A DNA stretch of 46,873 bases from Elusimicrobia bacterium RIFOXYD2_FULL_34_15 (lineage in GTDB: Bacteria > Elusimicrobiota > UBA8919). Below are positions 23,520 through 44,797 of the stretch, one piece after another. The position numbers were made by a program, and so were the translations under genes. The notes under the pieces are model-generated. The model was given only the letters and a program-made list of their open reading frames with translations. It made no database searches and had not been told where the DNA came from. Position 1 is the stretch's first letter. Each line of letters starts with the position of its first letter. The stretch spans positions 1-46,873 of the forward strand of contig MGVS01000044.1 of NCBI GenBank assembly GCA_001800605.1. The letters run 5' to 3'.

Positions 23520-25733
23520 CTAAAAGAGGCTATCCGTAGCTTTTATGTCTAAAATACTTAATTGTATTGACTCTTTTGATTGCCAGGTATTTATTTCAAT
23601 TTTACAAGCAACATCAACTTTCTGATTTCTTTTCAAATCAACTATCCGCCGGCCTAATTGCCAACCGATGCCATCTAAAGTAGTTTTGCCATTTTTCAGA
23701 CGCACACGTAAATGTGAACCATCTATTCCAAAATTTGAAATATCGGTTAGTAAAACATCGTGTAAAATAAATATCGGATGTTCGTTTCCGGAACCACAGG
23801 GTTCTAAAAGTTCCATTTCCTTTATAAATTCAAAAGAAATATCAGAAATCGAAACCGGAATATCTATAGAAAGATGCGGTATAAGCATTTCATCTGTTAT
23901 CAATTCGCTTGCAATGAATTTTATCCGCTTAATAAATTCACTTAGCTTGCTTTTTGAAACGCTTAAACCGGCAGCAGCTTTATGCCCGCCGTATTTTATT
24001 ACTATATCCTTACATTTTTCTATAACTGAAATAATATCAATTCCTTCAATGCTTCTCGAAGAACCCATCGCTATATCCCCATCGAGTATTAGAAGAAATA
24101 TCGGACGGCCAAATTCCCTGACCATTTGATTTGCTATTATTCCGGTTACCCCATGCTTTAATCCCTCAACAACGGTTACAAATATTTTATCATTTTCAAT
24201 ATCGTTTTGCTGAATAGTTGCGTCGATAAAACTTTTAATATTTATTTTTTGCAAATCTTTTCTGTCGTCGTTAATTGACATAATTTCGTCCATCAACAAT
24301 TGTGCTTTTTCGTTACTCTCAGTCATTAACAAATCTACCGATAAATTAACTTTTCCGCAACGGCCGGCAGCGTTAAGCACAGGTACTATTGACCAGGATA
24401 CTTTTTTTGCTGTGAAAGATTTTTTGTCAATTTGGAAAGTATCAAGAATAGTTCTGATACCGGGTTTTTGAGAATTATAGAACAACCTAAGCCCGTATTT
24501 TACAAAAATCCTGTTTTCGGAAACAAGCGGTACGATATCGGCCACTGTACCAAGCGCAACAAGATACAAATAATTTTCAATAAAGTCTCTCTGCTTTTTT
24601 TCTTGGACCAGGACAAGCCGTTCAAAAATCTTCACAGTTGCTTCGGCATCACTAACCGCCCTGTGATGCTTTCCCATTTCAATATCGAACTCTTTAGTTA
24701 AAGCATTCAAAGCGTGTGAGCCGAATTTGAAAAGTGAACGCGACATGCCAAGCGTATCTATAACTTCGTTTGGAATTTGTTTTTTCGCTTTATTTGCATA
24801 ACAACTCAAAAAACCCATATCGAAATCTGAATTATGCGCAACAAGAATTGCGTCCCCGATAAAATCTAAAAATCTAACGATAACTTCCGAAATATCCGGC
24901 GCATTTTCACAATCCTCATTTGTTATGCCGTGAATGGCAGTGACACTCTCCGGAATCGGAAATTTCGGTTTGACAAGTGTCGAAAACCTGTCTATTTCTA
25001 TAAAATTTTGTATTTTTATTGCACCAATTTCAACAATTTCGTCTGTGGTAGGCGACAGCCCGGTTGTTTCAATATCTAAAATTACTATTTTTTTGTTGTA
25101 ATATTTCGAGTAAGAAAATGCAAGTGCCTGAAAAAGTTTAAATGCAACACCGCAACCGGCAAGTTCCTTGAACGGATATCTTTTATTTGAACGTTTCGGA
25201 TCAAGTATCGCAATAGCTTCCGGAAGCTCTCCAGGTGGTTCGTGATGGTCGGAAATTATCATGTCTATTCCAAGCGATTTTGCATACTTAACTTCTTCCT
25301 TACCGCTTATTCCACAATCGACGGTTATAATAAGTTTTACTCCTTTTTCATGATAAAGTTTTATAAATTCGTTGTGAAGGCCATAACCTTCTTCGGCCGG
25401 TATATACCATAATACATCAGCATTCAGCTCTTTAAGATATGAAAAAGCAATGTTGGTTGAAGTGATACCGTCAACATCCCTGTCGCCATAAATAAGTATT
25501 TTTTCGTTCTTATCAATCGCCGTTCTGATTCTGTCTACTGCTTTTTCCATATCATTAAATAAAAATGGATTGAATAAATCTGAAATTTTAGGAGATATAA
25601 ATCTCTTTATTTCACGTAATGTTTTAAATCCTCTCTGGACAAGTATAGAAGTAAATATTTTTGAATAACCGGTCTGAGCAGAAAGTTCGTCTATAATTGA
25701 TTCATCTGATGGTTTAATATTCCACTGTTTCAT
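23520..25733 (-). CDS. recJ: RecJ single-strand exonuclease with an inserted DnaQ-like 3'-5' exonuclease domain
   Basis: 737 aa. RecJ DHH motifs: DRDVDG (84-89), DCG (139-141), DHHE (162-165), then TVADIVPL (396-403), followed by DHHA1 (KYGGHKAAAGLSV) and a C-terminal OB-like part. Between residues ~214 and 378 lies a complete DEDDh exonuclease: ILDIETTG (D220, E222), HNSDFDMGFL (D305) and HHRAVSDAEAT (H357, D362). Without this insert the length is about 570, the normal RecJ size. The enzyme may thus degrade ssDNA 5'-3' by RecJ and 3'-5' by the insert. All catalytic residues of both domains are present and no frame break is seen, so this is a true domain-in-domain fusion. Confidence 0.95.
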   Translation of the reverse strand: MKQWNIKPSDESIIDELSAQTGYSKIFTSILVQRGFKTLREIKRFISPKISDLFNPFLFNDMEKAVDRIRTAIDKNEKILIYGDRDVDGITSTNIAFSYLKELNADVLWYIPAEEGYGLHNEFIKLYHEKGVKLIITVDCGISGKEEVKYAKSLGIDMIISDHHEPPGELPEAIAILDPKRSNKRYPFKELAGCGVAFKLFQALAFSYSKYYNKKIVILDIETTGLSPTTDEIVEIGAIKIQNFIEIDRFSTLVKPKFPIPESVTAIHGITNEDCENAPDISEVIVRFLDFIGDAILVAHNSDFDMGFLSCYANKAKKQIPNEVIDTLGMSRSLFKFGSHALNALTKEFDIEMGKHHRAVSDAEATVKIFERLVLVQEKKQRDFIENYLYLVALGTVADIVPLVSENRIFVKYGLRLFYNSQKPGIRTILDTFQIDKKSFTAKKVSWSIVPVLNAAGRCGKVNLSVDLLMTESNEKAQLLMDEIMSINDDRKDLQKINIKSFIDATIQQNDIENDKIFVTVVEGLKHGVTGIIANQMVREFGRPIFLLILDGDIAMGSSRSIEGIDIISVIEKCKDIVIKYGGHKAAAGLSVSKSKLSEFIKRIKFIASELITDEMLIPHLSIDIPVSISDISFEFIKEMELLEPCGSGNEHPIFILHDVLLTDISNFGIDGSHLRVRLKNGKTTLDGIGWQLGRRIVDLKRNQKVDVACKIEINTWQSKESIQLSILDIKATDSLF

Positions 25734-26820: not shown

Positions 26821-26823
26821 ATT

Positions 26824-28558: not shown

Positions 28559-28568
28559 AAAATTACCG

Positions 28569-28660: not shown

Positions 28661-28675
28661 TTGATTTTAAAACAA

Positions 28676-29857
28676 TCACATTATGATATTTTTAAAACTT
28701 TCCCCTGCATTTAGTTTTTCTATTTCGAATATATCCGCAATTGTCTGGCCTAAATCAGCAAAAGTTTTTCTTATTCCAACATCAATATTATTTTTTATTT
28801 TTTTGCAATAAATAAAGACCGGAACATATTCGCGTGTATGATCTGTGTGTTTTAAATATGTCGGGTCACAACCGTGATCGGCAGTAATAAATAAGTAATC
28901 ATCGCAGGCCATTTTATTATAAATTTCAGGTAAAACATTATCAAATTCTTTAAGCCCGTTATAATACGATTGTGTATCCCGGCGGTGTCCCCAAAGCATG
29001 TCAAAATCTACAAGATTGATAAATATAAATTGAGATTTTTTAGAATCTTTACCGGTAATTGTTTCCAATATTTTTTCCATTCCTTCTTTGTTGTTGTTTG
29101 TATGTATAGACTTGCTTATGCCTTTCCCGTTAAATATATCATGTATTTTCCCTATTCCGATAACTTCTATGCCGGAATTTTCCAATTTATCTAAAAGTGT
29201 TTCTTCAGGCGGATTTAGAGAATAATCTTTTCTGTTAGATGTTCTTTTAAAATTTCCCGGAAAACCCACAAATGGTCTTGCAATTACCCTACCGACGTTG
29301 TGCGGAGCAACAAGCATTTTTCTTGCAATTTCACAGACTTTGTAAAGCCGTTTCAAACCGAATATTTTTTCGTCTTCGTGCGATGCAATCTGAAAAACAC
29401 TGTCAGCTGAAGTATAGATTATCGGATATCCGGTTTTGCAGTGTTCCTCGCCTAATTTTTTTATTATTTCTGTGCCGGAAGCGGTACAATTACCCAATAT
29501 CTTTGTACCTATTAAATTTTCGTATTTCTCTATTAGTTCTTTCGGAAAACCGTTCGGATAAGTCGGAAGAGGTCTTTCAGTAATTATGCCCATAATCTCC
29601 CAATGTCCAATTGTGGTATCTTTTCCGGCTGACTTTTCAGCCATTTTACCGAAAGAACCAATTAAATTATTTTTGGGATTAGAATTGGGAATTGAAATTA
29701 AATTGTAAAGTCCCAATTTTGATAAATTAGGCAGGTTAAAATTTTTAACTGATTTGGCAATATTACTTAATGTATTGGATCCTTCATCATTATATTTTTT
29801 GGCGTCGGGAAGCGCACCAACACCGGCAGAATCCAAAACAATTAGAAATACCCTCAT
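28676..29857 (-). CDS. deoB: Phosphopentomutase
   Basis: 393 aa, alkaline-phosphatase superfamily. The N-terminal metal site is FLIVLDSAGVGALPDA, followed by GKDTTIGHWEIMG (catalytic Thr) and YTSADSVFQIASHE. The C-terminal metal ligands are in DFDMLWGHRRD and FITADHGCDPTY with KHTDHTREYVPV. It interconverts (deoxy)ribose-1-phosphate and -5-phosphate, linking the phosphorylases to DeoC, transketolase and RpiB. The ATG is preceded by a short AT-rich leader; the downstream end shares the AACAATCACATTAT context with punA. Confidence 0.96.
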   Translation of the reverse strand: MRVFLIVLDSAGVGALPDAKKYNDEGSNTLSNIAKSVKNFNLPNLSKLGLYNLISIPNSNPKNNLIGSFGKMAEKSAGKDTTIGHWEIMGIITERPLPTYPNGFPKELIEKYENLIGTKILGNCTASGTEIIKKLGEEHCKTGYPIIYTSADSVFQIASHEDEKIFGLKRLYKVCEIARKMLVAPHNVGRVIARPFVGFPGNFKRTSNRKDYSLNPPEETLLDKLENSGIEVIGIGKIHDIFNGKGISKSIHTNNNKEGMEKILETITGKDSKKSQFIFINLVDFDMLWGHRRDTQSYYNGLKEFDNVLPEIYNKMACDDYLFITADHGCDPTYLKHTDHTREYVPVFIYCKKIKNNIDVGIRKTFADLGQTIADIFEIEKLNAGESFKNIIM

Positions 29858-29888
29858 TATATGTAATTGTTGAAAAATCTAACAATTT

Positions 29889-29935
29889 CTGATTACACAG
29901 ATTTTGAAAGACGATTACACAGATATTATATAATC
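29889..29935. repeat. ATTACACAGATT-family element, two direct units
   Basis: GATTACACAGATTTTGAAAG at 29891 and GATTACACAGATATTATATA at 29913 give a period of 22 nt. Only a short AATC half of a right arm is visible. It lies between the deoB start and the end of the transketolase C-terminal subunit gene. Confidence 0.8.
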
Positions 29936-29991
29936 AAGAATTTGGTTATTTTCTTTGTTCTCGCTAAATATAATACTTGTGCCAGCTATTT

Positions 29992-30930
29992 TCACTTAAT
30001 TTTATAGACTGCTCTTACCGCTTTAAAAATATCACTCGACATACAGCAGAATTCTTTCATCAGTTCCACCGGAGTTCCGGATTCGCCGAATCTGTCCGCT
30101 ACCCCGACTCTTTTTATCGGAACAGGATGATTTTCAGCAAGGACTTCAGCAACCGCGCCGCCAAGACCACCCGCAATCTGATGCTCTTCTGCAGTAACAA
30201 CCCTGCCTGTTTTTTTAGCAGATTGTATTATAGTTTCCGCATCAATAGGTTTCACTGTATGAAGATTTATTATTTCTGCGGAAATGTTTTCTTTTGCAAG
30301 CTCATCAGCAGCAACCATTGACTCATAAACCATTGAACCGCATGCAATGATAGTAACATCTTTTCCTTTTCTTACCACATTTGCTTTACCGAAAACAAAA
30401 GGTGTTTTTTCATCCGTAATTACCGGGACAGCTTCCCTACCAAAGCGGATATATACGGGACCGTTGATATCTGCGGATGCTAAAGTGGCCTTTCTTGTTT
30501 CATTGTAATCGCAGGGAACAACCACTTTCATTTCCGGAATTACCCTCATAATAGAAATTTCTTCTAATGCCTGATGTGTTGCACCATCGGCACCGACTGA
30601 AATCCCCCCATGTCCTCCGCCTATCTTTACGTTGCAATTATTATAACAAACCGTTGTTCTTATCTGATCCCAGCATCTGCCTGATGCAAAAACTCCGTAA
30701 GTGCAAACAAACGGAATTTTTCCGACAAGAGAAAGACCCGCTGCAACACCCATCCCGTTTTGTTCAGCTATACCCATTGAAAAAAATCTGTTGGGAAATT
30801 TTTCTTTGAACATATTTGCAGTAGTTGAAGACGTAATATCTAAACCGATTACAACTACATTAGGATTTTTTTCACCTAAAATTACAAGAGCTTCTCCATA
30901 ACCATATCTCGTCGCTTTCATGTCAACCAT
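29992..30930 (-). CDS. Transketolase C-terminal subunit
   Basis: 312 aa, equivalent to the Pyr (middle) and C-terminal domains of transketolase: ATRYGYGEALVILGEKNPN, VVIGLDITSSTTA, FFSMGIAEQNGMGVAAGLSL (catalytic Glu near 76), HGGISVGADGATHQALEEI, and a C-terminal domain with EEHQIAGGLGGAVAEVLAEN. It pairs with the N-terminal subunit encoded 29 nt upstream; split transketolases are common in anaerobes and archaea. AAGGAG precedes the ATG. A 1-deoxyxylulose-phosphate synthase role is unlikely given the two-gene layout. Confidence 0.94.
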   Translation of the reverse strand: MVDMKATRYGYGEALVILGEKNPNVVVIGLDITSSTTANMFKEKFPNRFFSMGIAEQNGMGVAAGLSLVGKIPFVCTYGVFASGRCWDQIRTTVCYNNCNVKIGGGHGGISVGADGATHQALEEISIMRVIPEMKVVVPCDYNETRKATLASADINGPVYIRFGREAVPVITDEKTPFVFGKANVVRKGKDVTIIACGSMVYESMVAADELAKENISAEIINLHTVKPIDAETIIQSAKKTGRVVTAEEHQIAGGLGGAVAEVLAENHPVPIKRVGVADRFGESGTPVELMKEFCCMSSDIFKAVRAVYKIK

Positions 30931-30959
30931 AAAAAATATCTCCTTGTTAAATTATATTG

Positions 30960-31772
30960 TTAGCACAATTCCTTTAAAGCTGCGTCGTATTGTTCTTTAT
31001 CAGGTGTTTTACCATGCCAGCCGGCCTGATTTTCCATAAATGAAATACCTTTGCCTTTTACTGTATGTGCTATTATTACCGATGGTTTGTCTTTTGTCGA
31101 GGATGCTTTATCATAAGCAGATAAAATATCACCCATTTTATGGCCGTCAATCTCAATAACATTCCAACCAAATGATTTCCATTTATCTGTAAGAGGTTCA
31201 ATACCCATAACATCTTTAACATTCCCATCTATTTGAAGTTTATTGAAATCAACTATACCGCATATATTATCCAGTTTATAATGAGCGGCTGACATCGCGG
31301 CTTCCCAGATAGAACCTTCCTGCTGTTCTCCGTCACCCATTAAAACATAAACGCGGTTGCTTTTTTTGTCGAGTTTAAAACCAAGCGCCATTCCTACCCC
31401 TGCTGAAAGTCCCTGCCCTAAAGAACCGCTGGATATTTCAACACCCGGAAGCCCTGCATTTTTTGCAGGATGGCCCTGAAGACGCGATCCGAATTTTCTT
31501 AATGTCATAAGTTCATCTACGGCATAATAACCTGCTTCTGCTAAACATGCATACAGCAGCGGACACACATGCCCTTTTGAAAATACTACTCTGTCGCGTC
31601 CTTCCCAGATTGGATCTTTTGGATTGTGTTTTAGTTTTTCAAAATATAATCCTACCATTAAGTCAGTTGCTGAAAGTGAGCCGCCAGGATGCCCGCTTTT
31701 TGCTTCGGTAAGCATTTTAATTAAGTCTACTCTTATAACTTTTGCCTTTTTCTCAAGTTCCTGAACCGTCAT
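30960..31772 (-). CDS. Transketolase N-terminal (TPP-binding) subunit
   Basis: 270 aa. ThDP-binding module: KSGHPGGSLSATDLMVGLYF, RVVFSKGHVCPLLYA, EISSGSLGQGLSAGVGMA, GDGEQQEGSIWEAAMSA ending in DFNKLQIDG (the GDG...N diphosphate/Mg motif) and AHTVKGKGISFMEN. It transfers two-carbon units in the non-oxidative pentose phosphate pathway together with the next gene. GGGAGGA lies before the ATG. The pair sits between the nucleoside genes and the signalling genes. Confidence 0.95.
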   Translation of the reverse strand: MTVQELEKKAKVIRVDLIKMLTEAKSGHPGGSLSATDLMVGLYFEKLKHNPKDPIWEGRDRVVFSKGHVCPLLYACLAEAGYYAVDELMTLRKFGSRLQGHPAKNAGLPGVEISSGSLGQGLSAGVGMALGFKLDKKSNRVYVLMGDGEQQEGSIWEAAMSAAHYKLDNICGIVDFNKLQIDGNVKDVMGIEPLTDKWKSFGWNVIEIDGHKMGDILSAYDKASSTKDKPSVIIAHTVKGKGISFMENQAGWHGKTPDKEQYDAALKELC

Positions 31773-31963: not shown

Positions 31964-32344
31964 TTATTTACTATCTTTTTTCCTTTCTATTAACTTTGCT
32001 ATTTGATTTAATAAATCATCCGGTTCAAAAGGTTTTACAATATAACCGTCAGAACCAGCCATAAGTCCGCGCATCACTTCGACATCCTGTCCTAGCGCTG
32101 ATAAAAATAAAATCGGAATATTTATTGTTTCCGGCAAAGACCTTAATTTTTTACATACATCTATTCCATCCATCTCAGGCATCATAACATCAAGTATAAT
32201 AACCTCTGGCTTTATTTGTTGAGCTTTCTTTACTCCTTCCTGCCCATTATTACATGTTGTTATTTCATATCCGTGTTTTGTCAATAAAAACTCTAAAAGT
32301 CCTAACGTAGTAGTGTCGTCATCAACCGCCAATATTTTGTACAC
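31964..32344 (-). CDS. CheY-like single-domain response regulator
   Basis: 126 aa, one receiver domain: acidic pocket AVDDD, phospho-acceptor Asp in VIILDVMMPEMDG (near residue 52), Thr/Ser position in LFLSA and Lys in YIVKPFEPDDL. No output domain. The GTG start (32344) overlaps the kinase gene by 23 nt and has GAGGAGGG just upstream. It is almost certainly the cognate partner of the kinase. It could act by protein contact or pass phosphate onward. Confidence 0.94.
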   Translation of the reverse strand: MYKILAVDDDTTTLGLLEFLLTKHGYEITTCNNGQEGVKKAQQIKPEVIILDVMMPEMDGIDVCKKLRSLPETINIPILFLSALGQDVEVMRGLMAGSDGYIVKPFEPDDLLNQIAKLIERKKDSK

Positions 32345-34928
32345 TCTTTTCCCTCCTCGCTGATTTTCTTATTTTAGGAAGTAAAAATGAGAAATTCGAT
32401 CCTTGTCCCACCGCAGATTCGAGCCAAATATTGCCGCCATGTAATTCAACAATTGTCTTTGAAATAAATAGACCCAAACCGGTGCCTGTTGCTGAACGCG
32501 TGTATGAAGAATCTACCTGATAAAATTTTTCGAATATTCTGTTGTATTCATTATTAGGAATACCTATCCCTGTATCAGAAACAGAAGAAACAATATAATC
32601 TCCCTTGTCCTTTACTGTAATAGTTATTATACCTTCTTTAGCAGTAAACTTTATTGCATTAGAAATGAGATTGTTAAAAACCTGTAATATTCTGGAATTA
32701 TCAATTTCTATATCGGCAATATCATCATCAATGTCAACCTTTAATTCAATTTCCTTTTCTTTTATCTGATTGATATTTGACATAATAGATTTTTTTACAA
32801 TGTCTGAAATATTTCCTTTCTCCAATTTAAGTGCAATAAGGCCTCTTTCAATTTTGGATAAATCAAGAAAATCTGAGATCAGCATATTGAGATGATTTAT
32901 TGACTGTTTTACTATGCCTAAAAACTTTTTTTGATTATCATTTAATTTACCTGCATCTTCATTTAATACAACATGAACAAATCCCTTAATCGCTGTTAAG
33001 GGTGTTCTCATTTCGTGAGAAACCATTGATACAAAATCATTTTTAATTTTGTTTAACTTTTCAAGTTCCAGGTTTATTTCTTTAAGTTGATTATGTATTC
33101 TTGCGTTTTCAACGATTACAGCAACCTGCCCTGCAACGGATTCTGCAAGCCGTATTATTTCTTCACTAAAAACATTTTGCCGCCTTGAACAAAAGCAAAA
33201 AACTCCAATTTTTTTACCTTCAACCTGTAACGGAACAATTAAATTTGATTTTATTTCGTATTTGTCATGTATATTATCTAATGCATCTTTAAATTCAATA
33301 TTTGTTAAAGATTTTATCTTGCCTTCGAGGAATATCTTTACAATCGAAGAATCTGATTTAACATCTAATTCCATTGATTCTTTATTAACATATTCCGGAG
33401 GGAATTTTGGGATAAGCTTTTCACCGGTTTTGTTTAAAAGCCAGCAAACAGCGTAATCCGACTCTAAGGATCTTATCGTTTTTTCGGATATTACTTCAAG
33501 AATTTCTCCTAATTCCGGTTCGGTTTTTATTGTATTTGATATATCTCTTAGCACTAATAAATCGTTTATACGGTGATTCAATTGCTCATAAAGTTTAACC
33601 CGAGTGATCAGTTCGGAAATTTGCGATGCGACTACGGATAAGAATCGTAAATCTTCCTGTGAAAATTTGCCGATAACTTTGTTGCATACAATAAATAAAC
33701 CGACTGACTTTTTCTCTACTATAGGCAAAACAGCCAAGGATGTAATTCTGCGGTTATTATACAGATCCTGCAAATCAGAGTAAGATTCCATGAAAAGTTC
33801 GTTAGAGATAAAAGAAGTAATATTTTTAAACGATTTGATTAAAATACTGTTTTCGTTTCCAGATAAATTCAGCTTGAATCCTTTTAAATCTCCATAACCG
33901 TTAAGGGAATCCGAGTGTTCGCTATATATCATAAAGCCGGCAATAGATACATTGGTAATAATTTTTATTTTTTCTATTATTGCAGAAAACATATCATCCA
34001 TCTCAACCTTACTTGAAGCGGAAAATATTATGTCATTTAAAGCCTTCATTTCCTTAACTTTTGCAATTAAACGTAGATTTGTATTGGTCAGTTCTTCTGT
34101 TGTGGATTCAACTTCCAATTCCAGTCGCTTGTTAAATTCCTGCATGTCTTGATACATTCTGTGATTTTCCATAGCAATTGCAAGGTAATCTGCAAGTGTA
34201 GCTATCGTTTTGACAACATTGGTGTCAAAAAAACCTTTTATTCTGGAATTAGCATTAAAAGTTCCGATAACTTTATCATTAACTATAATTGGAACCTGAA
34301 CAAACGATACTATTCCTTCCTGTTTAAATATTTCTTCGGAACTAGATAGTTTTTCTTTTGCTGAATTATTTATTATAACTATTTCTTTAGTTAAAAGACT
34401 TCTGCTATAAAAATTTTCATCTTCATTAAAATGAAAATTTCTTATAAATTCGTCAGATAATCCCCGCGATACTTTAATTTTTATAATTCCGTCGCTGTCC
34501 TGCAACGTTATAAATGCTGAAGGCAATAACATTTTATCATACACTAAATCCAACAACATATTCATTATATCAACTATTTCTATATGTGAGGTAATTACTC
34601 TAGAGGCTACGGAAAGTATACTCAACGATTCCCGGGAAATCATTAAATGGCTAAGAAGTGAATTTATACTATCGCCTGTCTCACCAAAACTTCTGAGTTT
34701 TTTTATCTGAGAATAATCTCCATCTAATGCAGACTCCAGTATCTTTTCTGTTGAAAAAAGAGGCTTGAAAACAAAAAAATAACCTAAAACGATTACGGCC
34801 GCGGGATACAAAACTGTAAACAATATGCCTCTAAAATCTTTGATTAATATATAACCTGAAATAACCGCTAAAATGAATAGCAATATCCGTAAACTGAGTT
34901 TTATTCCAAAAATATTTTTTATTTTCAT
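32322..34928 (-). CDS. Membrane-anchored GAF-domain sensor histidine kinase
   Basis: 868 aa. Two N-terminal transmembrane helices (about residues 12-52), then three GAF-like domains (about 95-270, 300-460, 470-620) separated by coiled-coil helices. The HisKA domain has FVSMVSHEMRTPL (His638). The HATPase_c domain has N box QVFNNLISNAIKF, G1 DTGIGIP and G2 GTGLGL. The absence of an extracytoplasmic domain and the presence of three GAF modules point to sensing of a cytoplasmic small molecule or redox state. Co-translated with the receiver protein. Neighbouring pilT and GGDEF genes hint at surface behaviour, but the target is unknown. Confidence 0.93.
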   Translation of the reverse strand: MKIKNIFGIKLSLRILLFILAVISGYILIKDFRGILFTVLYPAAVIVLGYFFVFKPLFSTEKILESALDGDYSQIKKLRSFGETGDSINSLLSHLMISRESLSILSVASRVITSHIEIVDIMNMLLDLVYDKMLLPSAFITLQDSDGIIKIKVSRGLSDEFIRNFHFNEDENFYSRSLLTKEIVIINNSAKEKLSSSEEIFKQEGIVSFVQVPIIVNDKVIGTFNANSRIKGFFDTNVVKTIATLADYLAIAMENHRMYQDMQEFNKRLELEVESTTEELTNTNLRLIAKVKEMKALNDIIFSASSKVEMDDMFSAIIEKIKIITNVSIAGFMIYSEHSDSLNGYGDLKGFKLNLSGNENSILIKSFKNITSFISNELFMESYSDLQDLYNNRRITSLAVLPIVEKKSVGLFIVCNKVIGKFSQEDLRFLSVVASQISELITRVKLYEQLNHRINDLLVLRDISNTIKTEPELGEILEVISEKTIRSLESDYAVCWLLNKTGEKLIPKFPPEYVNKESMELDVKSDSSIVKIFLEGKIKSLTNIEFKDALDNIHDKYEIKSNLIVPLQVEGKKIGVFCFCSRRQNVFSEEIIRLAESVAGQVAVIVENARIHNQLKEINLELEKLNKIKNDFVSMVSHEMRTPLTAIKGFVHVVLNEDAGKLNDNQKKFLGIVKQSINHLNMLISDFLDLSKIERGLIALKLEKGNISDIVKKSIMSNINQIKEKEIELKVDIDDDIADIEIDNSRILQVFNNLISNAIKFTAKEGIITITVKDKGDYIVSSVSDTGIGIPNNEYNRIFEKFYQVDSSYTRSATGTGLGLFISKTIVELHGGNIWLESAVGQGSNFSFLLPKIRKSARREKSVQNIGG

Positions 34929-34997: not shown

Positions 34998-35102
34998 TTA
35001 CCCCGTAAAGTAATGTTGTTAATAATATTTTCCAACGAACTAAATTTTATAACCAATATATTCTACATTACTAACGGGGCTTACAACATTTTCTAACGGG
35101 GT
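34998..35102. repeat. CCCCGT-ended inverted-repeat element
   Basis: CCCCGTAAAGTAATGT (35001-35016) faces ACATTACTAACGGGGC (35065-35080), and a second TTTTCTAACGGGG follows at 35089-35101. The last one supplies the final Pro-Arg codons and TAG stop of the DnaA-like gene. Its ends match the elements at 21331 and 44798. Confidence 0.75.
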
Positions 35103-37099
35103 TTCCCTAAATCCTTATGTAATAAGGTGATATCAAGTGCTATGTTCAAATATTTATATTGTTTTGTCAAATCGGAATAAGGAATTATCTCCGGCGTAAT
35201 ATTATTTGCTTCGCAAACGGTTGTCAGCATATTTGTAAAATCATCTTCAGAAAGAGTTGGTACCGGTGGCGGACCTAATAATACCGCTATTGCTAAATTG
35301 TTGGTCTTGCATAGCTGAGCAAAAAGTGAATAATTTATTTTTTTATCTAGAGAATAACTTTTTTCAAAAACACTAAAAAGTCTGAATTTCAATTTATGTT
35401 TTTTTACTACCTCTTTAAATAACTCCTTCATCTTTTCAAAATCTTTCTCGTATCCTTCTGGATAAAATAAACCCACCTCTACGGGACTTAGCGAATCATA
35501 TTCATCTTTAGGAGCAGTGCCGGTAGGAGCAGAAGCTACTACTGGTTTTGAAGGTACAGGCGGTGTTACAGGAACATGAACGGGAACAGGTACAACAGAC
35601 GGCGGTTCAACTTGCGGTTGAGGTTTTTCTATATGAATTTCCGGCTGAGGTTGTATCGCTTGGGATGCCGACTGAACCGGAACTGAAACTTCAGCAGGTT
35701 TTTGAACCGACGGTATTGTCTCTTGAAGTATCGGCTGAGGAATAGATTGAACTTGCGGTTGTGGTTGTGAAATTTCTTCTTGAACCGGTTCCTGAACTAT
35801 TTTTTGTTCCGGAATTATCTTGGGTTCGTGAATCGTAATTGCCGGAGGAGTAACTTCAGGTACATCAACAATTTTTACCACTACAGTATCTTTCTTTTCC
35901 TCAAGTGCAACTTCCGGTAAAAGTTCGCCTATTAACTCTTTAACTAATTCAAAGTCAACAGGCATTTTCGTCATAGTTGCATATGCCTTAAGTCTTTTTA
36001 AAAATCCTTCCAGTTCCCTTATATTTGATTTTAATTTGCTTGCAACATAAATAAGTATTTTTTCATCTAGTTCTATTCCTTCATGTTTTTCTTTCTTTTT
36101 AAGTATAGCAACTCTTGTTTCTAAATCCGGCGGTTTTATGTCGGCAATCAGCCCCCATTCAAAACGGGATTGTAATCTGTCTTCTATTCCTGATAATTTT
36201 TTTGGAGGCCTATCAGAAGTAAGAACTATCTGTTTTTGATTTTCGTGTAAAATATTAAACGTATGGAAGAATTCTTCCTGCGTAGATTCGGCTTCCGAAA
36301 GAAATTGAATATCATCCACAAGTAACAAATCAAGTTTTCTGTAGTGCTCGCGTAATTCTGTCAGTTTCCCGGTTTTTATCGCCTCGATAACTTCTGATGT
36401 AAACTTTTCAGTTGTAATATATAGTACCTGAGCATCCGGATTTTTGTCTTTAATCGTATTTCCTATCGCCTGCATAATGTGCGTTTTTCCCAAACCCACT
36501 CCACCGTAAATAAAAAGCGGATTATAAGTTTTACCGGGATTTTGGGAAACCGCCCACGCCGCGGCGTGAACAAAACGGCTGTTTGAACCAACAACAAACT
36601 CGTCAAATACATATCTTAAATTTAATTTGGGTTTCGGAGCTTCGGATTCCTTCTTCGGAGTAATAATCTGGGGTTTTTCTTCTTGCTTTACTTCCTGTTT
36701 TTTCTCTTCCCTTAGTGGTTGTACCGGTATTTCCTGATGTTTTTCTTCGAGCGGCTGATATTTTTCTTCTTGGGATGGATTTATTAATTTATCGCCAAAT
36801 TGTGCAACCTTTTCTAAAATTTCTTCTAAATCCTTGCCCTTTGATGATTCTTCAACTTTTCCTTTTTGGCATTTACTCTTTAGAAATTTTTCAGCTGCAG
36901 CTTTTTTTTCCGGAGTTAGATTATAAATATAAATCGCATAGTTGAATTCCTGCGAAAGAGGAGTAAACGGTTTTCCCGCATCCTGATTAAAAAATTTTAT
37001 AATTTCTGACAAATCCCCACTTACGGAGGAAAGCAGTAATTTATGTCTGCTTTTGTCCCGGTCACAAGGCGATGGCATTAAATCCCATTTAGTAATCAT
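35093..37099 (-). CDS. DnaA-type AAA+ ATPase lacking the DNA-binding domain, with novel N- and C-terminal domains
   Basis: 668 aa. Residues 1-75: small alpha/beta domain. 80-155: Lys/Glu-rich linker. 155-395: AAA+ core closely like DnaA domain III, with Walker A GGVGLGKT (199-206), Walker B LLLVDDIQFL, sensor 1 LTSD, SRFEWGLIADIKPPDLETR and sensor 2 SNIRELEG. DnaA domain IV (helix-turn-helix with a DHTTV-type signature) is absent. Instead, 395-530 is a Pro/Gln/Val/Glu-rich linker and 538-668 a predicted alpha/beta domain. Both end domains resemble those of the protein encoded just upstream. So it is a DnaA paralogue, not the replication initiator. The last codons come from a repeat. The true C-terminus may therefore have been slightly different. 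Confidence 0.85.
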   Translation of the reverse strand: MITKWDLMPSPCDRDKSRHKLLLSSVSGDLSEIIKFFNQDAGKPFTPLSQEFNYAIYIYNLTPEKKAAAEKFLKSKCQKGKVEESSKGKDLEEILEKVAQFGDKLINPSQEEKYQPLEEKHQEIPVQPLREEKKQEVKQEEKPQIITPKKESEAPKPKLNLRYVFDEFVVGSNSRFVHAAAWAVSQNPGKTYNPLFIYGGVGLGKTHIMQAIGNTIKDKNPDAQVLYITTEKFTSEVIEAIKTGKLTELREHYRKLDLLLVDDIQFLSEAESTQEEFFHTFNILHENQKQIVLTSDRPPKKLSGIEDRLQSRFEWGLIADIKPPDLETRVAILKKKEKHEGIELDEKILIYVASKLKSNIRELEGFLKRLKAYATMTKMPVDFELVKELIGELLPEVALEEKKDTVVVKIVDVPEVTPPAITIHEPKIIPEQKIVQEPVQEEISQPQPQVQSIPQPILQETIPSVQKPAEVSVPVQSASQAIQPQPEIHIEKPQPQVEPPSVVPVPVHVPVTPPVPSKPVVASAPTGTAPKDEYDSLSPVEVGLFYPEGYEKDFEKMKELFKEVVKKHKLKFRLFSVFEKSYSLDKKINYSLFAQLCKTNNLAIAVLLGPPPVPTLSEDDFTNMLTTVCEANNITPEIIPYSDLTKQYKYLNIALDITLLHKDLGKPR

Positions 37100-37107
37100 A
37101 ATAATTT

Positions 37108-37203
37108 CAGTACACAGGATACAGTACTCAGGATACAGTTTTAAAAGGATAATTATTTTTGGTTTTACTGTTTACTGTATTCTGTGTACTGTGTACTGCC
37201 TTT
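37108..37203. repeat. CAGTACA heptad inverted-repeat element (copy 6)
   Basis: Left arm CAGTACA, CAGGATA, CAGTACT, CAGGATA, CAG (37109-37139). Right arm ACTGTTTACTGTATTCTGTG, TACTG to 37200. The spacer TTTTAAAAGGATAATTATTT is similar to those of other copies. It fills the gap between the DnaA-like gene and its paralogue. Confidence 0.92.
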
Positions 37204-37205
37204 AA

Positions 37206-38612
37206 TCACATTCTTAATTTTTTCTTAATAAGTAAAAGTTCAATTGCTATATCAACATATAAAAACTTTTTATCAAGCTGATCCTGGGCTGCAAATAAAC
37301 TTAACATACTATATGCCATACATTCTTTATTTATAAAAAATCTTATATCATTTAGCCCATCCGGCACAATAGCTATCATCAATTCGACGCCCTGAGAACT
37401 AGCATTCTTGATAATTGCATTGAAGTCATTGGTTGAAGTAACGCTATATTCGACTGTCGATAATTTTTCAATATAAATTGGTTCTTTCATTGATTTTTCT
37501 ATGATGGCCGTTAATTTACTAACAAAATTTTCTAACAAAGCATTTTCACCTGAAGGGTATAGATACAAAACTTTTAACGGACCGGATCTTGATGAGATAT
37601 CAATTATTGTTGGTCCCTCGTTCGGCTTAGAAATTTGCGGAATTGATGTTGTCGGTTCACCGAAACGTTCAATTTCTATTTTGAATACCGGTTCCTCTTC
37701 TTGTATTCTTTCTTCTTTCACTTCTGCTTCAGGAACAGGCTGTTGCGGTTGTTCCGGCACGACTTCTTTCTCTTCAGTAATTTCAGCATAACTTTCAACA
37801 GCAGGTTCTGCAGGAACTTCAGCAGGAATTTCTTCTTTTACTTCTGCAGATTTTTCTGAACTTACTTCTGTAGGTGTCTCAACCGTTATTTCTGGGACTG
37901 GCTCTGCTTCTAAGTTCTCTTCTTTAATTGCTTCAGATTGCTTTTCAGGTTCAGGTTCAACCGGTATGTTTTCAGCTTCTATGGATTTATGAATATATAT
38001 TTCATCGGATTCTTCCTTAGATTCTTCTGATTCTTCAATATGTGCATCTTTAGCTATTTGATTAGGCAGCTTTGCTATAGATTCTTCAATCTTTTCTGTT
38101 ACCGGTTCTTCTGTTTTTTCTGATATTTCCGGCTGTATTTTTTCTTCTGCGTGTATTTCTTCTACAAAATCCTTTTGCTGCTCAGGTGAGGTTTCAGGTA
38201 ACTCCTGTTCATTTTTTTCATCTACATAGTGTTCTTCTGTAAATTTTTCTAAAGCATCAATTCTTTCGGGTATCTCTTGCTTAAGATGTCTTTGCTCTTC
38301 TGCGGTCAAAGTTGAAAAAAGAGTATTTAGTTCGGAAATAACACCTTGAATTTCATCTTCCTTCTTTAATTCGTTATCAACATCTTGAGTACCCATGAAA
38401 TATTTATAAATACTTTTTCTTTCCTCTCTTGTTGAATTATTGAGATATATTCCCCATTTGTATTTTACATCAAGAATTCTAAACGGTTCAGAACAAATAT
38501 TCGGATATTTTTTGATTAAATTATCCGCATCTTCTCTTGCTGAGACCATAACTATATATCTATTCTGATGTTTTTTGTCAGTTTCCGGCAATATAACCCA
38601 ATTATTAGCCAT
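37206..38612 (-). CDS. ATPase-less paralogue of the DnaA-like protein
   Basis: 468 aa. N-terminal domain (1-75) aligns with that of the DnaA-like protein: a W near residue 5, L-x-P, a central strand, then WGIYLNNSTREERKSIYKYF against YAIYIYNLTPEKKAAAEKFL. Residues ~80-340 are a very acidic Glu/Pro-rich disordered linker. The C-terminal ~124 residues (KVLYLYPSGEN, ELMIAIVPDG, YVDIAIELLL) align with the C-terminus of the DnaA-like protein (EVGLFYPEGYE, LAIAVLLGPP, YLNIALDITLL). It lacks any ATPase motif. ATG 38612 (MANNW) is preferred over an upstream TTG. It lies between pilT and the ATPase gene, so the pair probably works together. I cannot name a family. Confidence 0.8.
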   Translation of the reverse strand: MANNWVILPETDKKHQNRYIVMVSAREDADNLIKKYPNICSEPFRILDVKYKWGIYLNNSTREERKSIYKYFMGTQDVDNELKKEDEIQGVISELNTLFSTLTAEEQRHLKQEIPERIDALEKFTEEHYVDEKNEQELPETSPEQQKDFVEEIHAEEKIQPEISEKTEEPVTEKIEESIAKLPNQIAKDAHIEESEESKEESDEIYIHKSIEAENIPVEPEPEKQSEAIKEENLEAEPVPEITVETPTEVSSEKSAEVKEEIPAEVPAEPAVESYAEITEEKEVVPEQPQQPVPEAEVKEERIQEEEPVFKIEIERFGEPTTSIPQISKPNEGPTIIDISSRSGPLKVLYLYPSGENALLENFVSKLTAIIEKSMKEPIYIEKLSTVEYSVTSTNDFNAIIKNASSQGVELMIAIVPDGLNDIRFFINKECMAYSMLSLFAAQDQLDKKFLYVDIAIELLLIKKKLRM

Positions 38613-38677: not shown

Positions 38678-39754
38678 TTATTGTTCCTCTCTATCTATAC
38701 CTTTTACTTTTAGCATCAAATCATCAGGATTTGTTGCATTTTCCAGAGCATCTTCGAGTGTTATAATCTTTTCTTTATAAAGACGAATTAAATCCTGATC
38801 GAAAGTTCTCATCCCGTAATATTCACCCTGCTCCATCAACTTATATATTTCAATTGACCTATTTTCCGCAATATTTTTTCTGATTAATGCAGTACCCACT
38901 AAAATTTCAAGCGCAGGCATGCGCATATCACTGTTGATACTGGGTATTAAACGCTGAGCGATTATACCTCTTATCACGTTTGAAAGTGAAATTCTTACCT
39001 GATGTTGTTGATGCGGAGGATATGCATCGACAATCCTGTCTATTGTCTGAACCGCATTCATAGTATGTATAGTTGATAATACAAGATGCCCGGTTTCAGC
39101 AGACGAGATACCTGCAGAGATAGCTTCGTAATCGCGCATTTCTCCTATACTTACTACATCAGGATCCTGCCTTAATACATATTTCAAACCCTTGGCAAAT
39201 GATTTTGTATCCGCTCCGATTTCCCTCTGGCTGATAAAAGATTTTTCATCTTTATGAAAATACTCAATTGGATCTTCTATCGTTACAATTTTATAAGCAT
39301 AAGTTTTATTTATATAATCAATCAGTGAATTCATCGTTGTGGTTTTGCCGGCACCTGTTATCCCGGCGAACAGAATCAATCCCCGCGGTTCTTCTGCCAT
39401 TTTTTTAAATATTGTTTGCGGCAGATTAAGTTCTTCAAATGCCTTTATTTTAAAAGGAACTACTCTCAGTGTAAGCGCGATTGTCCCCCTTTGTTTATAA
39501 ACATTTACCCTGAATCTTGATACACCTTCTAATCCGTAAGAAAAATCTATTTCACTCTCTTCTTCAAATATTTTTCTCTGTTCTTCATTTAACAATCCAT
39601 AAGCGATCTCCTGAATATGTTTAGGAGAAAAATTTTCAAATCCGGTTGAAATCAGCTGTCCATTAATTCTTATTACAGGAGGTGTACCTGCCTTGAAGTG
39701 AATGTCCGAAATCCCTTTTTTCAAAATTGCTTGCAAAAGTTCAGCAGTATTCAT
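38678..39754 (-). CDS. pilT: PilT/PilU-type pilus retraction ATPase
   Basis: 358 aa. The N-terminal PAS-like domain has SDIHFKAGTPPVIRINGQL. Walker A is GITGAGKTTTMNSL, the Asp box VTIEDPIEYFHKDE, Walker B VVSIGEMRDYEAI and the His box GHLVLSTIHTMNA. Near the C-terminus ALIRKNIAENRS replaces the AIRNLIRE motif of PilT. It powers retraction of type IV pili at the inner-membrane base. GGAGAGG precedes the ATG. No pilin or PilC/PilB gene is in the window, so it is a satellite of the main pilus locus. Confidence 0.92.
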   Translation of the reverse strand: MNTAELLQAILKKGISDIHFKAGTPPVIRINGQLISTGFENFSPKHIQEIAYGLLNEEQRKIFEEESEIDFSYGLEGVSRFRVNVYKQRGTIALTLRVVPFKIKAFEELNLPQTIFKKMAEEPRGLILFAGITGAGKTTTMNSLIDYINKTYAYKIVTIEDPIEYFHKDEKSFISQREIGADTKSFAKGLKYVLRQDPDVVSIGEMRDYEAISAGISSAETGHLVLSTIHTMNAVQTIDRIVDAYPPHQQHQVRISLSNVIRGIIAQRLIPSINSDMRMPALEILVGTALIRKNIAENRSIEIYKLMEQGEYYGMRTFDQDLIRLYKEKIITLEDALENATNPDDLMLKVKGIDREEQ

Positions 39755-39765: not shown

Positions 39766-40425
39766 CTATTTATTTAAAATTATATTAACGGAAGCCGACG
39801 TTCCTATCCTGTTTGCTCCTGCGTTTATCATTTTTACGGCATCGCCGAATGTCTTTATTCCGCCGGATGCTTTAACACCAATCTTATCTCCCACAATTTT
39901 ACGCATCAATCTTACATCTTCGACTGTAGCACCATGTGGTCCGAATCCTGTTGATGTTTTTACAAAATCAACATGCGCTTCTTTGGATAATAGGCACGCT
40001 TTTACTTTTTCTTCGTTTGTAAGACATACCGTTTCCAAAATCACTTTTAAAATTTTTTTACCTGCCGCTTTGCGGACTAATTTTATATCATTTATAAAAA
40101 CTTTAAATTTTTTGTCTTTCAAGGCGCCTATATTCATAACCATGTCTATCTCATCGGCACCGTTTTTAATTGCTTCTTTTGCCTCGAACGCTTTTACTTC
40201 AGAACAAGTTGCCCCAAGTGGAAAACCTATTACCGTACAAACTTTTACATTTGAACCCTTAAGATTCTTCTTTGCAAATGAAACGTAAAACGGATTCACA
40301 CAAACAGATGCAAACTTATATTTTTTTGCTTCCAAACAAAGCCTTACAATATCTTTTTCAGTTGCATCAGCTTTTAAAAGAGTATGATCTATCAAAGAAG
40401 CAACATTAAATTCTTTATTACTCAT
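39766..40425 (-). CDS. deoC: Deoxyribose-phosphate aldolase
   Basis: 219 aa, class I TIM-barrel aldolase: [46 protein letters not shown] (Asp), Schiff-base Lys in [10 protein letters not shown], and [10 protein letters not shown] (second Lys). It splits deoxyribose-5-phosphate into glyceraldehyde-3-phosphate and acetaldehyde. ATG 40425 ([11 protein letters not shown]) is preferred; an upstream start would overlap the DUF4139 gene. It completes nucleoside breakdown started by the phosphorylases; TpiA and PduL further up can use its product streams. Confidence 0.96.
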
Positions 40426-40439
40426 AAAACTCAGAATTC

Positions 40440-41861
40440 TTAATCCCACCAATAATGAATGGTATAATTTAATGTATTTTCCGAATTTTTCGGGATTTTT
40501 AATTTATATTCTATTGTTCTTGAATCCTTCTTTTCATAATCCTGAGATTTTTGTGTAATTTTCCAGTTAGACCACCTGTTAAGTTTTTCAACAACCGTAA
40601 TTTCAATATTCTCTTCTTTATGATTCCTTAAATTAATTTTAAATGATTCGTCACACCATCCGTCTCCGTTCTTAAAATCCGCTTGAACTCTTTCGCCCAC
40701 AATGTCAAAAGCATCACCCAGATAAATTCTTATATTTTCGTCTTTTGGCGTGTGTTCTATCGAATCTTCTCCGATAAACTCCAAAGATTTGTCCGTGTCT
40801 TCTTTATAAACCCGAATTTTCCCTTTGGGTAACGGAATTCCAAGATTGTTCTCTTTTGAATTTTTAAAATCTAACATAACATAAACTTTTTTATTTGACT
40901 GGATACCATAATTTCTATCTGTACGTGACCATTGCTGATAACCGTAAAACTGCTGTAAAGATCCGTTGTAAATATAAAGCTTCTTAACCGGGATGCCTGT
41001 AGCGGAAGCAAATTCTATCTGTTTTGTTTCATTATCCTTCACAGTCGTTTTTCTTTGTAAGGTATACATGTGATATTCGAAAAAGGATTTTTCTTGAAAT
41101 TGCGGCGCGGCTGTTGCCCGCATAGCTTTTGCTTCATACATAACATCATTTTCTGCTAATGCATCAGGTGCAATACGATGAATATCGCCTGCTATTAATT
41201 TTAATTTTGCTTCTTTATAAGTTGCGCCGGATTTATTATCTATGGTTACCCATCCGTTCAAATCTATATTTTTATCGTCTTTATCCGAAACGACAACATA
41301 ATCTGCATCCCAGTTTATCCCGTTTGTCAAATAATCAACTTCTATTTTGTTTTCCCCTGAAACATCATTTTGCAAAAGCCATGAAAGCGTGGGTTTTAAA
41401 ATTAAACCTTCGGGAATTTTAGAAAGTGAAACATCACCTGACGGATTAACTAAAATTTTATCATCAGATTTTATAGTAAGCCCACCAGCTGTTGAAAGAA
41501 GCGTACCCTTTATAATTTCTTTTTTATCCCCGTCTTTTCCTATTCTTTTTTCAAGTTCTATTTCCTTGCCGATATATTTTTGCAAAAGCTTATCCCTGGA
41601 AATTAAATCATACTCGAAATTCTGCTCTAAAACCGAACATTTCTCCGGATTTGTTAATGACTTAAAATGTACGCTTGTCGGATCAATTTTTGCAGCAACA
41701 TCAGTAAATTCAATTTTTTGAACGCCTTTATCAATTTTTAACGTTCTTCTGTCTTTTACTAAACCAAGGTTCTGATTATATATAGTCAAATCTATTTCCT
41801 GCGAAAATACAAGATGAACACAGATAATAAACAAGATTAAGACAGATATTATTTTTTTCAT
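40440..41861 (-). CDS. DUF4139 secreted protein
   Basis: 473 aa with a clean signal peptide ([20 protein letters not shown]). The mature part starts [19 protein letters not shown], the typical opening of DUF4139 proteins, and contains [18 protein letters not shown], a beta-rich middle ([34 protein letters not shown]) and a C-terminal beta-sandwich. Known relatives are periplasmic or cell-surface proteins of unknown function. Its ATG overlaps the TGA of the HEAT/coiled-coil gene (ATGA), making it the last gene of a coupled envelope cassette. Confidence 0.85.
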
Positions 41862-43147
41862 CTCAATTCGTCTGTTCGTTTATATAAATCTCTTGAGTCC
41901 TGCACCTTGCCTGTCATTGCCAACTTTGCAGATTTAGAAAAACCTTTTTTCTTTTCATATGCTAAATCTAAACCGAATTTTTTTATATCAGTATTAAAAA
42001 ATGCATCGTGACATTTCATAAAGAGATCTATATTTCTGTTATTAGCGGTAATGACTTCAACCCCAAGTTTATTCATTTCATCTTCCATATCTTTCATCTC
42101 TTGATATTTGGCCACGTCCTGTTTAGCCTGTTGTTCTTCAGTAACTTGTAAACGCATTTTTTCTTCAAGATCGTTTACTTTTTGGGAATATTCCTTTACT
42201 TTTACATCAGATTTTTTTGCCATCTTAAGCAGGAATATCCCTCCGACAACTATTTCTGCTATAAGAATTGTCATTCCAATAGTATATAAAGTTTTTACTT
42301 CTTTATATTTTTCAGCTTTGCCTTTCTCAAGTGCAGCAACTTTTTTGGTTAGTTTTGAAATATTGCTTTCTTTTTCTTTAAGTATACCTTCAATTTCACC
42401 ATCAATTGTGTCCAACTGTTTCTCCAGCGCCTTTTTGTCACGGTAAATATGATCGCGGTCGGAAACAACATTATCATAATGACCTATTATTTCCAACTCC
42501 TTTAATTCTTTTTTTATAACATTCTTCAAAAAAGGAACCGTAGTATCGCTATCTCTAATCAAAATTAAAATTTCACCGAGATCCTCAACAATTTTCTGAT
42601 TATTATGATGTAATACTATGTTGACCAACGTCTTTATTGCTTCAGCCCTAACCTCTGAATCCTTATCATTTTTTAGAACTTCTATCAATTCACTCAATAC
42701 CTCAGGGCTGCAAATCCTGTCTATAGCATGGATAGATTCTATGCGCACTTTTCTTTCTTTGTCTTTAAGAGTCTTGCTTAAATACTGAAGAAATGATTTA
42801 TCGCCGATCATTCCGAGCGCGCCTACTACGGCGGCGCGTATCACAGCAGATTCTTTAAGCTTTTCTATAAAATGCGCTACGACTGTGTTGTCTCCGATAT
42901 TACCAAGTGACCTTATTATTACAGCTATGACCTCTTCATTTTTTTCTTCGTCCAACGCCTCTATAAGAACCGTGGTTGCCTTCTTTCCGAATTCTCCAAG
43001 TTGGCTGGCTGCCTGGGAACGTTCCGAAATTTCAGAACTACTTTTTAAAATATCTTTTAGTTCCTTTATTCGAACATTTTCATCTAAAATATTATCAAGA
43101 GTAAAATAGGACTCTTTTTGCTGCTTTTCTGTTTCTTTATCAAGCAT
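41858..43147 (-). CDS. HEAT-repeat membrane protein with coiled coils
   Basis: 429 aa. Residues ~35-200 are about five HEAT/PBS-like repeats (for example VIAVIIRSLGNIGDNTVV and VIRAAVVGALGMIGDKSF). A coiled coil covers ~230-285, a single transmembrane helix (TIGMTILIAEIVVGGIFLL) lies near residue 300, and a second coiled coil covers ~320-365. No enzyme motif is present. No signal peptide: the HEAT part is probably cytoplasmic and the C-terminal coiled coil outside, or the reverse. The start lies one base after the stop of the lipoprotein gene. A scaffold between cytoplasm and envelope is my inference. Confidence 0.8.
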   Translation of the reverse strand: MLDKETEKQQKESYFTLDNILDENVRIKELKDILKSSSEISERSQAASQLGEFGKKATTVLIEALDEEKNEEVIAVIIRSLGNIGDNTVVAHFIEKLKESAVIRAAVVGALGMIGDKSFLQYLSKTLKDKERKVRIESIHAIDRICSPEVLSELIEVLKNDKDSEVRAEAIKTLVNIVLHHNNQKIVEDLGEILILIRDSDTTVPFLKNVIKKELKELEIIGHYDNVVSDRDHIYRDKKALEKQLDTIDGEIEGILKEKESNISKLTKKVAALEKGKAEKYKEVKTLYTIGMTILIAEIVVGGIFLLKMAKKSDVKVKEYSQKVNDLEEKMRLQVTEEQQAKQDVAKYQEMKDMEDEMNKLGVEVITANNRNIDLFMKCHDAFFNTDIKKFGLDLAYEKKKGFSKSAKLAMTGKVQDSRDLYKRTDELR

Positions 43148-43148
43148 A

Positions 43149-43883
43149 TTATTTTAAATCTTTCCAATCTTGTTTTAACGCCTTTTTAAAAGAATATACT
43201 ATTTGCCCAATCGCAGTGGTAAGATCCAATGCTTCATATGACTTTGTATCGCTCCACACAACTTCGACTGTTGAAACATCGATAATCTTTGCAAAAACAG
43301 AAACTGATGATGAAACGCTGAAAATGTTTGCATCATTAGTGCCCAACACAGTCCCATCCTGAACAACTGTGGTCCCGCCAATAGGATAAACCCTATCTGA
43401 AATTATAACGTTGTTCTTATCCTTAAATACCAATAATTTACTTGATGGATTATATTCTATAACGTTGCCTGAAATAACCGCATCTACTCCGGACAACTTA
43501 ATATCAGTTATATTCTCTATATCTGTTCTATCAACAACATTTATTCCTGATGCTAAGAGCTGAGATATAAATTCATTGCTTATATTTACGCCGCCTGTAC
43601 CAGTAAACTTTAACACAGCAACTTTTTTTATGTTTGAAAAATTATAACCGCTTTTAACTACCGGTTTTGTAGAAGCACAACCGGAAATAAACCAATTAGA
43701 AATTAAAAATACAAAATTAAAAATGAAGATAAGAATTAATCCTAAATTTTTAATCCCCAAAAGACGGGGACAGGTCCCTCGATATCCTTCGACAGGCTCA
43801 GGACAAGTAACTCGGGACAAGCTTTTTAATCCCGCTTTTGCAGGACAAGTTTTTAAATTTTTCATCGCCTCTACAATCTTCAT
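43149..43883 (-). CDS. CsgG/LpoB-like outer-membrane lipoprotein with a repeat inserted in its signal region
   Basis: 244 aa. The mature domain reads NIKKVAVLKFTGTGGVNISN, LLASGINVVDRTDIENI, GVDAVISGNVIEYN, SVSVFAKIIDVSTVEVVWS: the CsgG/LpoB/DUF799-type nucleotide-like fold found in curli export and penicillin-binding-protein activators. A lipobox WFISGC follows a hydrophobic stretch. The ATG at 43883 overlaps the TPR gene stop (ATGA) and has AAGGA upstream. Codons for about residues 11-47 come from a repeat insertion (43743-43862), which puts CPEPVEG-type sequence between MKIVEAMKNL and the hydrophobic core. Export may be weakened or unaffected. Confidence 0.8.
   Translation of the reverse strand: MKIVEAMKNLKTCPAKAGLKSLSRVTCPEPVEGYRGTCPRLLGIKNLGLILIFIFNFVFLISNWFISGCASTKPVVKSGYNFSNIKKVAVLKFTGTGGVNISNEFISQLLASGINVVDRTDIENITDIKLSGVDAVISGNVIEYNPSSKLLVFKDKNNVIISDRVYPIGGTTVVQDGTVLGTNDANIFSVSSSVSVFAKIIDVSTVEVVWSDTKSYEALDLTTAIGQIVYSFKKALKQDWKDLK
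43743..43862. repeat. CCTTCGACAGGCTCAGGACA-type extragenic repeat inserted in a coding region
   Basis: The direct repeats TAAATTTTT at 43743-43751 and 43854-43862 are 111 bp apart and enclose a GC-richer segment with CCTTCGACAGGCTCAGGACA (43788-43807) and several GGGACA/TGTCC-type pairs. This resembles a widely dispersed extragenic repeat. 111 bp is 37 codons, so the lipoprotein frame is preserved. Removing one copy plus the insert restores MKIVEAMKNLGLILIF. Confidence 0.8.
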
Positions 43884-44347: not shown

Positions 44348-44348
44348 T

Positions 44349-44786: not shown

Positions 44787-44797
44787 AATTTTCCACT

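Follow-up and report, generated by a model that had tools for sequence, protein, structure and literature searches.

Locus and domain architecture

The window analyzed here is a 46,873-nucleotide stretch (contig MGVS01000044.1, assembly GCA_001800605.1) from Elusimicrobia bacterium RIFOXYD2_FULL_34_15, a member of the phylum Elusimicrobiota. It encodes a DnaA-derived AAA+ protein and, beside it, a paralogue that lacks the ATPase core and has both end domains in common with it (Table 1). Pfam searches of the AAA+ protein revealed Bac_DnaA (PF00308; 235 bits, residues 159 to 319) and a weak Hda lid match. Only Bac_DnaA and related P-loop families matched this protein, and no Pfam family scored over the cutoff in the ATPase-less paralogue. 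The open reading frame (ORF) of the latter was counted from an ATG, with an in-frame TTG 18 bases upstream.

Table 1. Features of the window discussed in the text
Feature	Position in window	Strand	Basis
DnaA-derived AAA+ protein, 668 aa	35093..37099	-	ORF and Pfam/NCBIfam
N-terminal domain of AAA+ protein, residues 1-73; small alpha/beta (b-b-a-b-a), predicted	36881..37099	-	AlphaFold2
DnaA domain III AAA+ core, residues 159-395	35915..36625	-	PF00308 and motif tables
Pro/Gln/Val-rich linker of AAA+ protein, residues 400-535	35495..35902	-	Composition
C-terminal Argonaute-MID-like domain (predicted fold), residues 536-668	35096..35494	-	AlphaFold2 and Foldseek
ATPase-less paralogue, 468 aa, with both end domains of the AAA+ protein	37206..38612	-	
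N-terminal domain of ATPase-less paralogue	38382..38612	-	hhalign
C-terminal (MID-like family) domain of ATPase-less paralogue	37212..37586	-	hhalign
PilT family ATPase, locus-specific second PilT paralogue	38678..39754	-	TIGR01420 and tree
Sensor histidine kinase with a GAF domain; conserved as the gene immediately downstream	32322..34928	-	
Response regulator following the kinase; observed in family f1 and record L005	31964..32344	-	
deoC-like gene (deoxyribose-phosphate aldolase), conserved upstream gene	39766..40452	-	Named from sequence, not library-scanned
RecJ single-stranded DNA exonuclease fused to DEDDh exonuclease	23520..25733	-	

The linkers flanking the AAA+ core are of low complexity, and the linker at residues 400 to 535 consists of 21% Pro, 17% Val, and 12% Gln. 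The original prediction, made from the sequence without database searches, had described a DnaA domain III core between linkers in one protein and a Glu/Pro-rich linker only in the other. The Pfam matches and the composition agree with this description, since residues 130 to 340 of the ATPase-less paralogue contain 28% Glu and 11% Pro.

Smith-Waterman comparison of the end domains of the two proteins gave z values of 12.2 (N-terminal) and 7.0 (C-terminal), with 0 of 1000 shuffles reaching the score. Profiles built separately from the AAA+ type and the ATPase-less type were aligned with hhalign over 72 columns for the N-terminal domains (probability 97.5, E = 5.7e-12) and 122 columns for the C-terminal domains (probability 98.1, E = 1.3e-13). 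Chance likeness is excluded by the shuffles and the profile-profile matches. As judged from these comparisons, the N- and C-terminal domains of the neighboring proteins are homologous, which bears out the earlier proposal that the two proteins align at both ends. A frame error, a pseudogene, or an oddity of one genome is also excluded, as the frames are open in 24 families. Variants of this arrangement were observed elsewhere, with three consecutive paralogues (two differing ATPase-less proteins and one AAA+ protein, each with both end domains) at loci L116, L117, and L118, and a 922-aa AAA+ member carrying a tandem pair of N-terminal domains at L170:8471-11239.

Predicted structure of the end domains

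The AlphaFold2 model of the C-terminal domain (predicted local distance difference test score [pLDDT], 93.8; predicted template modeling score [pTM], 0.87) has a b-a-b-a-b-a-b-a fold. In a Foldseek search of the PDB, the first 17 matches were all Argonaute/Piwi MID domains (best E, 6.7e-6; template modeling score about 0.6-0.68 for the best matches), followed by lumazine synthase at 3.5e-4. A profile search of PDB sequences gave weak matches, which included a Piwi-domain protein and an AGO1 chain at E values of 0.019 and 0.35, respectively. In addition, hhalign comparison with a profile of 16 MID domains from short prokaryotic Argonautes (pAgos) yielded a probability of 16.9 (P = 0.0015) over 107 columns in order; the controls scored 0.3 (reversed profile) and at most 1.4 (16 unrelated neighbor families). 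The MID fold of the modeled domain is thus well supported, and its homology to Argonaute MID is likely, though not proven. Compared alone with the pAgo MID profile, the C-terminal domain of the ATPase-less type did not outscore the reversed control, and it is called MID-like on the strength of its homology to the domain of the AAA+ type.

The guide 5'-phosphate pocket of MID (Y/H/R-K-Q-K) is not retained in 18 AAA+ proteins, as placed by alignment rather than by coordinates. The equivalent positions are, in order, variable; Thr/Ala and others; Glu (11 proteins), Gln (6), or Leu (1); and Thr/Ala. No Pfam match to PIWI was found among the window proteins, and PF02171 occurs in 3 of 295 Elusimicrobiota genomes, the window's genome not being among them. 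Two Elusimicrobium-type genomes (L183:1033-3415 and L184) encode a short pAgo preceded by a gene for a 341-aa partner that may be APAZ-like; Argonautes are otherwise almost absent from Elusimicrobiota.

The N-terminal domain (pLDDT, 89.7; pTM, 0.77) had no significant structural or sequence match, with a best Foldseek E value of 0.12 and no Pfam family. The description of both end domains as new is supported, with the correction that the predicted fold of the C-terminal one is a known, Argonaute-MID-like fold.

DnaA ancestry of the AAA+ core

The AAA+ core of the window protein retains Walker A and B, sensor 1, the Arg finger, box VII, sensor 2, and the initiator-specific motif. The NCBIfam DnaA model TIGR00362 scores the protein at 369.8 bits against a cutoff of 343.9 and covers model positions 54 to 346 of 437, leaving positions 347 to 437 unmatched. 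The DHTT-type signature of DnaA domain IV was found in none of the proteins bearing either end domain; it was present in 87 DnaA proteins, all of which lack both end domains. On this evidence, domain IV is absent from the AAA+ protein, as the original prediction had stated. A separate full-length DnaA is encoded on another contig of the same genome.

A survey of 57 AAA+ proteins of the family distinguished 32 canonical members, which are of the window's type, from 25 divergent ones. The canonical cores formed one clade (support, 100/99) apart from the DnaA proteins of Elusimicrobiota and other phyla, in line with the suggestion that the core be placed against true DnaA, and this tree excludes a local duplication of the genome's own dnaA. 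Walker A and B, the sensor 1 Asp, the box VII Arg, and the sensor 2 Arg are present in all 32 canonical members, and the Arg finger in 30. The residues with which Bacillus subtilis DnaA captures bases of single-stranded DNA (ssDNA) were taken from PMC10721633, and their numbering was placed on a Bacillus DnaA sequence with the Walker A lysine as the starting point of the count. In the canonical members, R202 and E228 are retained in 32/32, I190 in 31/32, and an aliphatic residue at I193 in 32/32, with the N187 position mostly substituted. The position of Escherichia coli R245, which contacts ssDNA (PMC5835720), is Arg in 25 of the 32.

In the divergent members, Walker A and B are present, and sensor 1, the Arg finger, box VII, and sensor 2 are largely lost. 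Their ssDNA residues are also largely lost, the R202 position being mostly Glu or Asp. They retain the P-loop and usually both end domains, and some reach 900-1600 aa through long linkers. One of them, G033, is presumably from Elusimicrobium minutum.

A DnaA domain III core, together with matches to Hda models below the cutoff (TIGR03420, 115.6 against a curated cutoff of 194.8) and the Arg finger of the canonical members, could indicate an Hda-like regulator that controls the true DnaA through mixed AAA+ complexes or competes for ssDNA at oriC. This appears improbable, because the locus showed no genes for replication initiation, the true dnaA lies on a different contig, and the divergent members are without the Arg finger needed for Hda-like action. 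In its residues the window protein resembles a DnaA-type AAA+ ATPase, yet it is neither a DnaA nor an Argonaute. The NCBIfam DnaA model nevertheless names such proteins DnaA, and genomes of the phylum may therefore carry two annotated DnaA proteins.

Distribution in Elusimicrobiota

The profile of the C-terminal domain matched 205 of the 295 Elusimicrobiota genomes, including 147 of the 190 good genomes and 69 of the 90 genera. In family f3, which we take to be Endomicrobia, the domain was absent among the genomes listed, save for one weak match. Outside the phylum, one pattern scan of genome contigs was made, and among the 80 loci kept, the end domains occurred only in an Elusimicrobiota record. 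No members were found in plasmids and viral contigs with the queries used. Together with the single clade of the cores, these data show, as read from sequence, an ancient single origin of the canonical AAA+ type and a phylum-wide spread of the family.

Competence genes are usually conserved in Elusimicrobiota (PMC8809381), and ComEC was found in almost every good genome, whether or not the AAA+ protein was present, the window's genome among them. Neither pilT nor ComEC accounts for where the C-terminal domain occurs, as genomes of family f3 have ComEC, some of them have PilT, and most lack the domain.

The MID fold and its weak sequence similarity to short pAgo MID raise the question of a defense or guide-dependent system, in which the MID-like domain would bind the ends of guides or of foreign nucleic acid, with amplification by the AAA+ core, as in short Argonaute systems. 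Such a role is very improbable in view of the vertical inheritance, the synteny, and the phylum-wide rather than patchy spread. In addition, the guide-phosphate residues are not kept, PIWI and a recognizable effector are missing, PADLOC gave no convincing match beyond weak P-loop similarity, and the plasmid and viral searches were negative with the queries used.

Gene neighborhood

The neighborhood survey comprised 53 loci from 24 families, across which the gene order is deoC-pilT-(ATPase-less)-AAA+-kinase. Near the AAA+ gene, a histidine kinase was found in 17 families, almost always as the immediate next gene, deoC in 14, pilT in 12, and the ATPase-less partner in 12. The partner was recognized beside the AAA+ gene in 22 of the 53 loci, not in all of them. 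The pair is thus conserved beyond this genome, and the original prediction is not refuted on this count.

The adjacent PilT scored 455.9 with TIGR01420 (cutoff, 319.1). In the pilT tree, 27 linked and 18 unlinked genes were fully separate with 100/100 support, although the program warns of long branches meeting. By this tree, the linked pilT is a dedicated second paralogue that travels with the AAA+ gene. The suggested link to pilT accordingly holds in half of the families, where the paralogue is a dedicated one, and not in every family.

Elusimicrobium-type genomes have deoC first, then the AAA+ gene, one or two putative lipoproteins, ComM, and DprA, with no pilT or kinase adjacent. ComM lies near the AAA+ gene in 7 families and DprA in 3, both close downstream in these genomes. 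RecJ occurs within 1-8 genes of the AAA+ gene in 7 families other than those with ComM. The window cluster also includes RecJ, two nucleoside phosphorylases, phosphopentomutase, a phosphate transporter, and transketolase. The original prediction had named a surface, polarity, or DNA-related process; this context of ComM, DprA, RecJ, and deoxynucleoside catabolism speaks for DNA uptake and use no less than for polarity.

These neighbors also bear on the main alternative, possible though doubtful, in which the protein is a scaffold for the type IV pilus, for polarity, or for signaling. It would be an ATP-switched platform that sets the position of the second PilT or gates it, under control of the histidine kinase, with DNA binding as a leftover from DnaA. 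The most regular neighbors, the kinase and the dedicated PilT, fit this role, as do the divergent members, which lose the ssDNA residues and keep the P-loop and usually both ends. However, Elusimicrobium-type genomes place the gene with deoC, ComM, and DprA rather than next to pilT and the kinase, and the base-contact residues kept in canonical members would be needless for a pure scaffold.

Several further observations were made in the window. A deoxynucleoside catabolism cluster (22103-31772 and 39766-46397) contains pyrimidine nucleoside phosphorylase, purine phosphorylase, phosphopentomutase, transketolase, deoC, RpiB, PTAC, TIM, and the phosphate transporter, which suggests that nucleosides or DNA are used as food. 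The window RecJ (23520-25733) is interrupted at residues 217-370 by a DEDDh (DnaQ-like) 3'-5' exonuclease domain, and judging from its domains, the fusion may combine both exonuclease polarities in one protein. A lipoprotein-like ORF (43149-43883) has an N terminus with CPEPVEG, which we take to resemble a translated REP-type palindromic repeat, and the ORF at 18358-18717 belongs to the 23S rRNA intervening sequence protein family.

Putative function

The protein is a real, phylum-wide DnaA derivative of new architecture, undescribed as far as the literature was searched; no described case of a DnaA-type core joined to an Argonaute-MID-like domain without PIWI was found there. We tentatively favor the reading, which seems to us quite possible yet short of probable, that it is an ATP-driven ssDNA-binding assembly acting with a second retraction motor in DNA uptake. 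The AAA+ protein arose from a DnaA-type core in a single event, no later than the ancestor of most Elusimicrobiota; the other DnaA domains were exchanged for two others, a small N-terminal one that is new and a C-terminal one of predicted Argonaute MID fold. In the window's lineage, the protein would most likely still bind ATP and form polymers on ssDNA, using the Arg finger and the nucleobase-capture residues that it has kept, while the end domains on their tethers would stick out from the assembly. Because domain IV is missing, it would not be targeted to DnaA boxes or placed at oriC. The conserved gene order and the separate PilT clade indicate that it works with the dedicated PilT paralogue and the GAF histidine kinase. 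Since a dedicated retraction motor and DNA-processing genes are its neighbors, it would probably act on imported DNA, receiving, protecting, or feeding forward the ssDNA that retracting type IV pili and ComEC bring into the cell. The strand may then go to recombination, as ComM and DprA suggest for sister lineages, or to breakdown by RecJ and deoxynucleoside catabolism, as in the window. The ATPase-less paralogue might join through the common end domains and limit or bridge the assembly.

A fuller version, taken as a whole, is rather unlikely: that a DnaA core left replication to become part of a machine for DNA import peculiar to the phylum, polymerizing on entering ssDNA behind a dedicated pilus motor, with MID-like domains, also on the ATPase-less partner, reading or holding DNA ends and the strand delivered to recombination or nucleotide salvage.

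Several findings weigh against a role in DNA uptake, and the divergent members provide the strongest of them. Because 25 of the 57 members have lost the Arg finger and ssDNA residues, a DnaA-like helix on ssDNA cannot, as read from these residues, be the function of the whole family. The helical assembly originally proposed is plausible for the window's type, which keeps the Arg finger, sensors, box VII, and most ssDNA residues. The divergent members, including those beside ComM and DprA, keep their ends and, in several families, their DNA-uptake neighbors. Either they act via partners or the common function is scaffolding by the end domains. Family f3 has ComEC and, save for one weak match, lacks the protein among the genomes listed, so the AAA+ protein is not required for competence in the phylum. 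With the MID 5'-phosphate residues not kept, the C-terminal domain need not bind nucleic acid. Moreover, the histidine kinase fits signaling, and deoC and RecJ could be unrelated neighbors.

DnaA is known as a replication initiator and transcription factor, and in most of this phylum a DnaA-type core has been inherited apart from that role. If true, an action on imported ssDNA would provide a testable link between pilus retraction and cytoplasmic DNA handling.

Comparison with known systems

The AAA+ protein resembles DnaA (8btg, 8bv3, 2z4r, and 1l8q) in its domain III core, motifs, initiator-specific motif, and most ssDNA-contact residues, but it has no domain IV or recognizable domain I, forms its own clade, and bears new end domains. 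Hda (5x06) is likewise a DnaA-like AAA+ protein without domain IV, whereas the protein described here is far larger, with two additional domains and another gene context. The C-terminal domain is similar to Argonaute/Piwi MID (hAGO2, 3lud; MIWI, 4p1z) in predicted fold and topology, and it differs in the absence of PIWI, the lack of the phosphate-pocket residues, and an identity of 10-15%. Finally, the locus recalls PilT/PilU pairs, in which a second PilT-family ATPase stands beside the canonical PilT, except that the second PilT here is encoded with a DnaA-like ATPase and a kinase.

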